From Burkholderia contaminans (GTDB lineage Bacteria; Pseudomonadota; Gammaproteobacteria; Burkholderiales; Burkholderiaceae), in assembly GCF_029633825.1 (NCBI RefSeq), contig NZ_CP090640.1:1364001-1428000 (forward strand): DNA of 64,000 nucleotides. Direction: 5' to 3'. The notes beneath the pieces are model-generated. The model searched no databases, was not told the DNA's origin, and saw only the letters and a program-made list of their open reading frames with translations. This document shows positions 55,817 to 64,000 of the stretch, piece by piece. The first letter of the stretch is position 1. Each line of letters opens with the position of its first letter. A program made the position numbers and the translations under genes.

Positions 55817-60520
<4,704 letters not shown>

Positions 60521-60541
60521 GCGACGAACGACTTAGCGAAT

Positions 60542-60570
60542 GCCGCGCGCGCATGACTGCCGCGCGCGGC
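60542..60570 (+). repeat. Stem-loop between gltB and gltD
   Basis: GCCGCGCGCG (60542-60551) and CGCGCGCGGC (60561-60570) are perfect 10-bp inverted repeats with a nine-base loop in the 85-base spacer. No T-run follows; it may tune the relative gltB/gltD expression. Confidence 0.6.
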
Positions 60571-60605
60571 TCCCCCACCCGATACACCGAACAGAAGAGC
60601 ACCTT

Positions 60606-62072
60606 ATGGGCAAGGCAACCGGTTTTCTGGAGTTCGAACGCCGCCACGAGGCGTACGAAGCACCGCTCACGCGCGTGAAGCACTACAAGGAATTCGTCGC
60701 GGCACTGACCGACGCGGACGCGAAGGTCCAGGGCGCGCGCTGCATGGATTGCGGCATCCCGTTCTGCAACAACGGCTGCCCGGTCAACAACATCATTCCG
60801 GACTTCAACGATCTCGTTTACCGCCAGGACTGGCAGCAGGCGATCGAAGTCCTGCATTCGACCAACAACTTCCCGGAATTCACGGGCCGCATCTGCCCGG
60901 CGCCGTGCGAGGCAGCGTGCACGCTCGGGATCAACAACGACCCGGTCGGCATCAAGTCGATCGAGCACGCGATCATCGACAAGGCCTGGGCGGAAGGCTG
61001 GGTGAAGCCGCTGCCGGCCGAGCACAAGACGGGCAAGAAGGTCGCGGTCGTCGGCTCGGGACCCGCGGGCCTCGCCGCCGCGCAGCAGCTCGCGCGTGCC
61101 GGCCACGACGTGACGGTGTTCGAGAAGAACGATCGTGTCGGCGGCCTGCTGCGTTACGGGATCCCCGACTTCAAGCTCGAGAAGTGGCTGATCGACCGCC
61201 GCATGCGCCAGATGGAAGCGGAAGGCGTGACGTTCCGCACCAGCGTGTTCATCGGCAAGGATCCGCTGCCCGAGTCGATCGGCAGTCTCGCGAAGGAAAC
61301 CATCTCGCCGGACACGCTGAAGGAAGAATTCGACGCGGTCGTGATCGCCGGCGGTTCGGAAACGCCGCGCGATTTGCCGGTGCCGGGCCGCGAGCTCGCG
61401 GGCGTGCATTTCGCGATGGACTTCCTGCCGCAGCAGAACCGCGTGAACGCGGGCGACAAGCTCGTCGACCAGCTGCTCGCGAAGGGCAAGCACGTGATCG
61501 TGATCGGTGGTGGCGACACGGGTTCGGACTGCGTCGGCACGTCGAACCGTCATGGCGCGAAGCAGGTCACGCAGTTCGAGCTGCTGCCGCAGCCGCCGGA
61601 AGAGGAAAACAAGCCGCTCGTGTGGCCGTACTGGCCGATCAAGCTGCGCACGTCGTCGTCGCATGAAGAAGGTTGCGAGCGCGACTGGGCGGTCGCGACG
61701 AAGCGTCTCGAAGGCAAGAACGGCAAGGTCGAGAAGCTGATCGCGGTGCGCGTCGAGTGGAAGGACGGCAAGATGCAGGAAGTGCCGGGCTCCGAGTTCG
61801 AAATGAAGGCCGACCTCGTGCTGCTCGCGATGGGCTTCACGCAGCCGGCGGCACCGGTGCTCGAGGCATTCGGCGTCGCGAAGGATGCGCGCGGCAATGC
61901 GCGTGCGGCGACCGAAGGCGATCGTTCGTACTACACGTCGGTCGACAAGGTGTTCGCGGCGGGCGACATGCGCCGCGGCCAGTCGCTCGTGGTGTGGGCG
62001 ATCCGCGAAGGCCGTCAGTGCGCGCGCTCGGTCGATGCGTACCTGATGGGGCATTCGAACCTGCCGCGTTAA
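60606..62072 (+). CDS. gltD: Glutamate synthase (NADPH) small subunit
   Basis: GltD (488 aa) takes electrons from NADPH to the large subunit through FAD and iron-sulfur clusters. N-terminal cysteines are in [19 protein letters not shown] and [15 protein letters not shown]. The FAD site [21 protein letters not shown] and the NADPH site [17 protein letters not shown] are clear. Start ATG 60606 ([10 protein letters not shown]) lies 85 bases after gltB. It is the last core gene before the accessory segment. Confidence 0.97.
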
Positions 62073-62094
62073 GCGCGGGTCGGTAGCCGTCGTA

Positions 62095-62129
62095 GAAACC
62101 GGGCGTCCGAAAGGGCGCCCGGTTTTTTT
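62095..62129 (+). terminator. Intrinsic terminator after gltD
   Basis: AAACCGGGCG and CGCCCGGTTT pair around TCCGAAAGGG and are followed by a run of seven T residues. The minus-strand gene at 62129-62512 ends exactly at its distal edge, which marks a junction between core and accessory DNA. Confidence 0.9.
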
Positions 62130-62512
62130 CATTTCTGAAGCAGCGGGGGCTTGCGAGCTTGTCCGGCTGGGGCAACCGTCTGCCCGTAGCTCGCAAGTTG
62201 CTCGTTGCAATCGATCATCGCGGTGTATCGGGTTTCGGCGACGCGCAGTGGGAATTCCCATACGCCCAGCTTCCACGCGTGATACTGCGGCGCACCGTCG
62301 AACCGGATGCTGCCCGGTGGTACTCCATGTTCCCCAAGACGCAGCAGGACCTTTTCTCGCAGCTTATCGAGAGACATGTCGGGACAACTGCCTTCCGTTC
62401 TTTCATACCGGGAAGTTGCGACGATGCCGAACAGCAGCGTGTAGGCGCAGATCACTGCGACAACTAGCCCAAGAACTAGTTTGAGAACGCCGCGCACGAC
62501 TTTGGAAATCAT
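62129..62512 (-). CDS. Putative colicin M-type immunity protein (Cmi-like)
   Basis: This is a 127-residue protein with an N-terminal membrane anchor (about residues 8-33) and an extracytoplasmic domain. Besides Cys22 inside the anchor, Cys43 and Cys102 lie in the soluble part. E. coli Cmi has the same plan: a short anchor and a periplasmic domain closed by a disulfide between two cysteines about 75 residues apart. The end also resembles Cmi in form (TRYTAMIDCNEQ). It lies 75 bases after the colicin M-like gene on the same strand, the expected place for an immunity gene. Similarity is in architecture and a few residues only; a general unknown membrane protein is the alternative. Confidence 0.6.
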   Translation of the reverse strand: MISKVVRGVLKLVLGLVVAVICAYTLLFGIVATSRYERTEGSCPDMSLDKLREKVLLRLGEHGVPPGSIRFDGAPQYHAWKLGVWEFPLRVAETRYTAMIDCNEQLASYGQTVAPAGQARKPPLLQK

Positions 62513-62587
62513 GAATTGCTCGATATAGGCGCAAACAACTTGCGAGGTGCCCGGGCAGCCAAGTGGCTGGAACTGCCCGGGAGCATG

Positions 62588-63721
62588 TTAGCGGGGTGGC
62601 CGCATCAATCCACCGAGCGATGGCCTGTGGACTGCCTGCGGGGGATGTACGCCTGCATTCTTGACAGGTCGTTGGCCTGAGAACGAGAGCTTTTTTTCAC
62701 CGAAAAAATTAATTTGATAGTCCTTGTGTCCCAAGATGGAACCGAGTTTGGCCAGAAATGTTGTCGCAGCCTCCTGCAAGAACGGTCGGTTGGAAGGATC
62801 TGCATCGAACTTGTCGGGATTGAGTGAGTAGTAGCCGTCAAACCGATATGTATCGTCTTCAAGCATCACAAGCGTGCCACGTATCCTGCCGGATACTCGC
62901 CCAAAGACTGAGGCGCTCCAGAGATCTTGTGTCCCGTGACTGAAAATGTTGGTGCTGAAAGCAGTGTCGAACGAATAGACACCAGGGCCATATCCTGGAT
63001 TTTCAATGGCCTTCGTTATTTCTCTGAAATCGGCGACGCCCATTTTTAAATTTAGTGATTCAATGTTAACGGTTCGTTGGGTTCCGTCTCCGTGTATCCA
63101 ATGATTTATTGCTTCGACGAACATCAGTGGATTGCCATACGATTCGAATGTGCTCGTTGGAGGGATGCCGTGTGACTGACCAACATATATGCCAAATAGA
63201 GCGGTGATGTTGGCATATTGTCCGGGTTCGAAGTTGAACCCGTATTGGTTGGCGCCGGGTAGATGTTTGTAGCCGCCGATGGCCAGCCACGGAGTGAAGC
63301 CGCCAACCAGTGTTAGCTGATTGCGCCAGAATTTTGTGTCGTTGCTGCCGAAGATCTGGAGATGCTTGAGAAACATCTCGGTAGTGCGGACCATGTTTCC
63401 CGTGTTTGCAAAATGCAGCATGAAATTCGATGTGCAATATTCATTGAAGCAAACGGTAGGCGCTGGAATCCCGGCGCCAGGGTTAGCGCCGGGAATCTCA
63501 TTTACCTTGATGCCGAAGTCACCAAAATTGAAGTCTGGGGGCCTGGATGTTGTGATCGTGATCGGGGGGAGAACATTACTTTGACCCATGGCGGCTGTGT
63601 GTTTGAGTAGCGCGCCAAATGGAAGTGCGGTTGACGCAAACAGAAGGCGCCGCCGCATCAAAGACTGTTGGTTTTCTTCCGATGGCCGAGTTACATGTTT
63701 CAGAGGATTGCGCTGCGTCAT
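62588..63721 (-). CDS. Colicin M-like (lipid II-degrading) bacteriocin domain protein with export signal
   Basis: The protein has 377 aa. Residues about 200-345 line up by eye with the colicin M catalytic domain: HWIHGDGTQRTVNIESLNLK against HYLWGNGAERSVNIANIGLK, then GTLVMLEDDTYRFDGYYSL, and LGHKDYQI against SGKEYQI. The active-site motif DKYDFNASTHR of colicin M is DKFDADPSNR here (303-312): both Asp and the Arg remain, Tyr is Phe, and the His is lost. Residues 22-46 look like a twin-arginine signal (MRRRLLF, hydrophobic core), followed by PPITITTSRPP (52-62), similar to a TonB box. Start ATG 63721 has GGGA upstream. The gene is A+T-richer than its surroundings. Confidence 0.75.
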   Translation of the reverse strand: MTQRNPLKHVTRPSEENQQSLMRRRLLFASTALPFGALLKHTAAMGQSNVLPPITITTSRPPDFNFGDFGIKVNEIPGANPGAGIPAPTVCFNEYCTSNFMLHFANTGNMVRTTEMFLKHLQIFGSNDTKFWRNQLTLVGGFTPWLAIGGYKHLPGANQYGFNFEPGQYANITALFGIYVGQSHGIPPTSTFESYGNPLMFVEAINHWIHGDGTQRTVNIESLNLKMGVADFREITKAIENPGYGPGVYSFDTAFSTNIFSHGTQDLWSASVFGRVSGRIRGTLVMLEDDTYRFDGYYSLNPDKFDADPSNRPFLQEAATTFLAKLGSILGHKDYQINFFGEKKLSFSGQRPVKNAGVHPPQAVHRPSLGGLMRPPR

Positions 63722-64000
63722 TTCATATCCCGTGCAGTGGTTAAATTGAACTGTCGATTCGCATGCCTTAAGACTGCGACAGTCATTTTTTTCTGAGCGA
63801 TCTGCAAGAAATTTGTACACCACCGTTCGCGACGGAGTCGTCCGAAATGCTTTTGCAAAGCGATATCAAGAAAGGACCCGTGAGGAGGCGCGACGGCTTT
63901 CCTTATCCCGGAATTGACCCGAAACCCGCGCCGGCAGAGGAGATTCCGACGAAGTGCGGTCGATAGGCCTATCAGCTACCGCCGCATATCCTCCCGGTAC

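Follow-up and report, generated by a model that had tools for sequence, protein, structure and literature searches.

Introduction

Among described bacteriocins, the burkhocins M1 and M2 of Ghequire and De Mot (PMC4661593) provide the nearest precedents for the gene pair considered here, a putative colicin M-type toxin gene and its candidate immunity gene, which lie on the minus strand of a 64,000-nucleotide stretch of Burkholderia contaminans DNA (contig NZ_CP090640.1, positions 1,364,001 to 1,428,000), hereafter called the window. According to that paper, BurM1 and BurM2 kill Burkholderia strains and are neutralised by the product of an adjacent gene, both are active as cell-free protein, and spotting the recombinant mature proteins on lawns results in killing, purified BurM2 affecting ~7% of 44 strains. 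The same source reports that bmiB confers immunity to BurM2 and none to BurM1, and that the D297A substitution in BurM2 abolished activity. The BurM2/BmiB system of B. ambifaria AMMD, as described there, shares with the pair of the window its site between glutamate synthase and an amino acid symporter, an immunity gene downstream on the same strand that encodes a single-anchor protein with two cysteines, and a toxin with an export signal, a DKFDADxSNR signature and a conserved C-terminal extension. BurM1 of B. ambifaria MEX-5 is likewise described as an exported ColM-beta burkhocin of similar size (379 amino acids), but its partner BmiA has three membrane helices and is encoded upstream, on the other strand.

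More distant counterparts exist outside Burkholderia. In the Escherichia coli colicin M/Cmi pair the toxin also has a ColM domain, and the immunity protein is anchored once and carries two cysteines in its periplasmic part; however, colicin M is described as having neither an export signal nor a C-terminal tail (PMC4661593), its signature contains a His that the toxin of the window lacks, and cmi lies on the strand opposite to the toxin gene, whereas the two genes of the window share one strand. PmiB of Pseudomonas, which we know from its description in PMC5277000, is likewise linked to ColM-beta toxins, has two conserved cysteines and is called a BmiB homologue there, but carries a lipoprotein signal in place of the anchor, at 12-24% identity.

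Results and Discussion

Very probably, the two genes encode a bacteriocin of the burkhocin M type (ColM-beta) and its BmiB immunity protein, and occupy a variable insertion site flanked by gltBD and a sodium:alanine symporter gene. For this reading, gene structure, domains, catalytic motif, site, conservation, and fold and profile resemblance come from the present analysis, with killing, the Asp requirement and cognate immunity taken from what is published for relatives. The system, the gltD site and the family are already in the literature, and the pair of the window is a new allele.

The burM-type toxin gene occupies positions 62588-63721 of the minus strand (377 amino acids, ATG start, stop included). 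An upstream GTG at 63823 would give a protein of 411 amino acids, but we favour the ATG because four 377-residue relatives (P0035-P0038) share its position. Residues 196-351 (62669-63136) match PF14859 (Colicin_M) with E 3e-16 and 59.8 bits against a cut-off of 27, and the toxin also matches colicin M in the PDB (E 2e-10), both far beyond chance. The preliminary description of this DNA, made from the sequence alone, had stated that the C-terminal part follows colicin M position by position; the likeness itself stands, but the wording is loose, with 27% identity to E. coli colicin M over residues 196-357. The catalytic signature D303-KFDADPSN-R312 (62786-62815), in which D303 corresponds to D297 of BurM2, keeps both Asp residues and the Arg of DXYDX5HR, with Phe in place of Tyr and without the His, which is the degenerate form found in burkhocins. 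The toxin is 82-87% identical to four intact toxins from the same gltD site, relatives at 82-84% identity occur in named Burkholderia records, and a search of its own genome gave 1 match. Neither the toxin nor the immunity protein matched an NCBIfam model.

By eye and by alignment, the toxin begins with an export-signal-like segment containing MRRRLL (63584-63721, minus strand, residues 1 to ~46, cleavage point estimated by eye). The twin arginine is present in 17 of 18 burM frames, the 18th being a piece without an N-terminus, and twin-arginine (Tat) signals were predicted in 12/16 strains in the published survey (PMC4661593). The mature protein would then start with a TonB-box-like segment (63542-63574, minus strand, residues 50-60), a pattern seen by eye across burM proteins; the mature N-terminus of burkhocins is also described as conserved (PMC4661593).

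Beyond the ColM domain lies a tail of 26 amino acids (62591-62668, minus strand, residues 352-377), within the 26-36-residue extension characteristic of BurM. Its block 361-375 (PQAVHRPSLGGLMRP) is the most conserved consecutive 15-residue block of the toxin, at 0.97; the block with the catalytic motif reaches 0.93 and the ColM domain as a whole 0.80. The tail core PPQAVHRPSLGGLMRP, although outside the domain, is thus better conserved than the motif block, and a reduced form that keeps the GG is found in more distant burM proteins. A role in outer-membrane release or in receptor binding would be a guess in either case. The idea of a sorting tag common to other proteins found no support when a 27-residue tail was searched against a sample of 65 Burkholderia genomes, which also underlies the counts below: ten places had E<0.01, of which nine are known burM loci and the tenth lies in G050 (E 0.009). 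From the long list of weaker places, 17 were picked by eye: one proved to be the diverged burM of G018, and each of the remaining 16, among them G050, has the match within a reading frame that extends a further 8 to 559 residues; none of the weaker places examined showed the tail in any other protein. A PDB search with the tail gave no match.

The bmiB-type immunity gene (62129-62512, minus strand, 127 amino acids, stop included) begins 75 bp after the toxin stop (spacer 62513-62587), compared to 51-77 nucleotides in the seven intact pairs. The distance is as the preliminary description gave it. Its hydrophobic anchor spans about residues 8-35 (62408-62491): 19-residue Kyte-Doolittle windows exceed 1.6 from residues 1-19 to 17-35, with a best value of 2.7 starting at residue 13, and the predicted model has a helix at 2-37. 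We note that, where two extracytoplasmic cysteines had been proposed, C43 (62384-62386) and C102 (62207-62209) do lie outside and are kept in 46/46 and 45/46 alignment rows, respectively, while a third, C22, lies inside the anchor and is kept in 18/46. With a length close to ~126 amino acids, a single N-terminal hydrophobic helix, two conserved cysteines, linkage to burM and a position in a low-GC (guanine plus cytosine) stretch, the protein has the features of BmiB.

Searching with this immunity protein located a counterpart in genome G002 (E 2e-18), where the gltD site holds a 372-residue toxin with DKFDADSSNR at D297 and a 124-residue immunity protein. As sizes and position fit, we take this pair to be BurM2/BmiB of B. 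ambifaria AMMD, or close to it. On that assumption BurM2/BmiB is the closest published system, with identities to the pair of the window of 54% for the toxin (46% in its N-terminal part, 63% in its ColM part) and 36% for the immunity protein. In 21/21 comparisons among the seven intact pairs, conservation is lower for the immunity protein than for the ColM part of the toxin, in genomes whose gltD proteins are 98-100% identical to that of the window. The alleles at the site are strongly diverged, their surroundings almost identical.

The left neighbour of the pair, convergent with it, is a glutamate synthase small-subunit gene (60603-62072, plus strand; Fer4_20 and Pyr_redox_2 domains), which we take from its family to be gltD. 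A terminator-like stem of 15 pairs (62094-62127, plus strand) separates it from bmiB and is also found in the short-spacer genome G017, and the next gene beyond the window encodes a sodium:alanine symporter (PF01235, E 2e-155). GC content is 47-54% in scanning windows from 62400 on, compared to 62-71% in those within 58000-61999. Upstream of the toxin gene, at 63772-63784, lies the inverted repeat GACTGTCGCAGTC; we dropped a LexA-like reading of it because it is not conserved upstream of six other burM genes. A promoter scan gave 1 site against 1.2 expected.

All 65 genomes have gltD relatives. We surveyed up to 6.3 kb from the gltD end in each, less where contigs end, leaving out 11 genomes whose symporter could not be located (8 gave no match, and 3 gave only a misplaced partial one). 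Among the remaining 54, a spacer of 213-376 bp separates gltD from the symporter in 28 (median 308.5; the symporter of G019 is a partial match). The site carries burM with bmiB in 9, the toxin being in one frame in 7 and split over two in G048 (L010, L024) and G059 (L013, L023), bmiB without burM in 12 (partial in G041), and other inserts in 5. Over the whole sample, burM matches occur in 17/65 genomes and bmiB matches in 26/65. The 2015 paper (PMC4661593) already noted that bmiB can occur as an orphan, at similar locations and elsewhere; the word "tandem" is absent from its main text. In G010 (L097), G021 (L108) and G047 (L134), two adjoining bmiB-like genes lie downstream of gltD without a toxin, possibly a case of stacked immunity. 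In G053 (C27, C19) bmiB stands alone at gltD with a diverged burM on another contig, G022 (C12, C2) carries at another location a diverged second burM, 42% identical, and the burM of G044 (L021, L025), also split over two frames, lies on a different contig from its gltD.

Other occupants of the site include a plus-strand frame of ~320-360 amino acids in G018 (L105), G043 (L130), G049 (L136), G061 (L148) and partly G005 (L092), the G018 protein matching phytanoyl-CoA dioxygenase PhyH (E 3.5e-8) and the other copies appearing alike by eye. G044 (L131) and G045 (L132) carry an insert with a frame of ~170 amino acids, for which the G044 protein is ricin-type lectin-like (E 5.6e-5, below the Pfam cut-off). 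In G008 (L095), two plus-strand frames (131 and 295 amino acids) lie ~2050-3290 bases past gltD beside a burM-bmiB pair and, by eye, resemble an IS3-type transposase pair. A draw of 398 genomes across the phylum, too thin to represent Pseudomonas, contained PF14859 in 1 genome, that of the window; phage records gave 1 ColM match, and plasmid records gave 429, none covering 80% of the query.

Several points weigh against reading the locus as a working burkhocin pair. BurM2 itself was predicted to carry a general secretory (Sec) signal, not a Tat signal (PMC4661593); the structure model of the toxin is poor (mean predicted local distance difference test score, pLDDT, of 43.5, too low for use of the N-terminal half); the catalytic His of ColM is missing, as it is in other burkhocins; a 2018 review states that cleavage of lipid II by burkhocins had not yet been assayed; and the low identity between the immunity protein and its presumed BurM2 counterpart bears on partner specificity.

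The origin of the immunity protein is a separate question, as different answers to it are compatible with the locus being a burkhocin pair. Here, profile comparison suggests moderately supported kinship between BmiB and Cmi/YebF, although these have been called unrelated in print. We aligned eight Cmi/YebF rows (the colicin M immunity protein, a YebF-family protein of Klebsiella encoded next to a ColM gene, and six YebF-family proteins) and compared them with BmiB, obtaining a probability of 95% and a one-to-one E of 3e-8 at full length, anchors included, and 87% and 4e-6 for the periplasmic parts alone, where C43 falls on C31, C102 on C107, and the closing Tyr is also aligned. The C31-C107 disulfide is reported to be essential to Cmi activity (PMC8469651). 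The periplasmic score was 35.2, compared to at best 19.9 in 200 column shuffles, 22.9 in 200 shuffles that kept the two Cys columns, 11.2 for the reversed profile and 12.8 across 30 windows taken from the toxin alignment, although column shuffles are a mild null because they break secondary structure. Counting against the link, the four BmiB subgroups taken singly gave 66%, 80% (over 29 columns only), 5% and 18%, and 0/46 BmiB-family members matched the Pfam YebF model (PF13995) at E up to 10, for which reason we do not file BmiB in that family. Foldseek placed no Cmi entry among the best 50 of 314 matches (E<=10), and its second-look list has Cmi at rank 26 among the 50 matches listed. The preliminary description had likened the immunity protein to Cmi, and the profile evidence for this is stronger than the literature suggests, despite the failure of the Pfam check. 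We saw no report of the link among the papers listed by searches of open-access literature; an earlier report elsewhere is possible.

On balance, we lean toward one superfamily for BmiB, Cmi and the YebF proteins: a periplasmic ancestor resembling YebF, with cysteines at its two ends, would have been co-opted against ColM toxins, its descendants diverging too far for ordinary sequence comparison to recognise. The Pantoea-type immunity protein is another possible member; it gives 62% against Cmi/YebF at full length but 21% when limited to the periplasmic part, and a direct comparison with BmiB gave nothing. The alternative suggested in print, that BmiB represents a separate periplasmic immunity domain, unrelated to Cmi, whose paired cysteines and small alpha+beta fold arose by convergence, retains a real though lesser chance; it is harder to reconcile with the alignment of both cysteines and the Tyr and with a score above all 400 shuffles, the reversed profile and the unrelated windows.

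That the toxin is a decayed or inactive copy, with the immunity gene being what is kept, seems unlikely: the toxin-less immunity genes and the two split toxin genes at the site would fit such a process, but the frame in the window is open, its signal, motif and tail are intact, and it is close to four intact same-site toxins. The preliminary description had also left open an effector delivered by contact (e.g., through a type VI system), and ColM domains are described in the literature as polymorphic toxin modules, but the export-signal-like start, the TonB-box-like mature end, the killing of lawns by burkhocins and the metabolic and transport genes among the neighbours read (gltBD, symporter) make this highly improbable and leave the bacteriocin half of that proposal standing.

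For the burkhocin pair, a mechanism can be sketched, in which we infer the lipid II substrate, the receptor route, the disulfide, direct binding and the activity of the window's own pair. An export signal, probably a twin-arginine one, would take the newly made toxin to the producer's periplasm. The toxin's TonB-box-like start and N-terminal part may bind an outer-membrane receptor of a related bacterium and carry it across; once in the periplasm of the victim, its C-terminal domain, in which D303 is a key residue, would cleave lipid II and so stop wall synthesis. Because the toxin would pass through the producer's own periplasm, protection would be needed there, and BmiB, anchored in the inner membrane, could supply it; its periplasmic domain is probably of a diverged Cmi/YebF-like kind and would be closed by a C43-C102 disulfide.

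Conclusions

Judged from its sequence, the pair would add one more burkhocin to the known narrow-spectrum protein antibiotics, and, since its immunity allele is so far from the presumed BurM2 one, it could probe the specificity of burkhocin immunity. If BmiB has the architecture and disulfide of Cmi, mutational knowledge of Cmi would be transferable to Burkholderia, and the idea of unrelated single-anchor proteins having been enlisted as immunity partners by ColM toxins would have to be revised. Immunity genes that are kept, and even doubled, without a toxin are what one would expect if burkhocins exert genuine selection.
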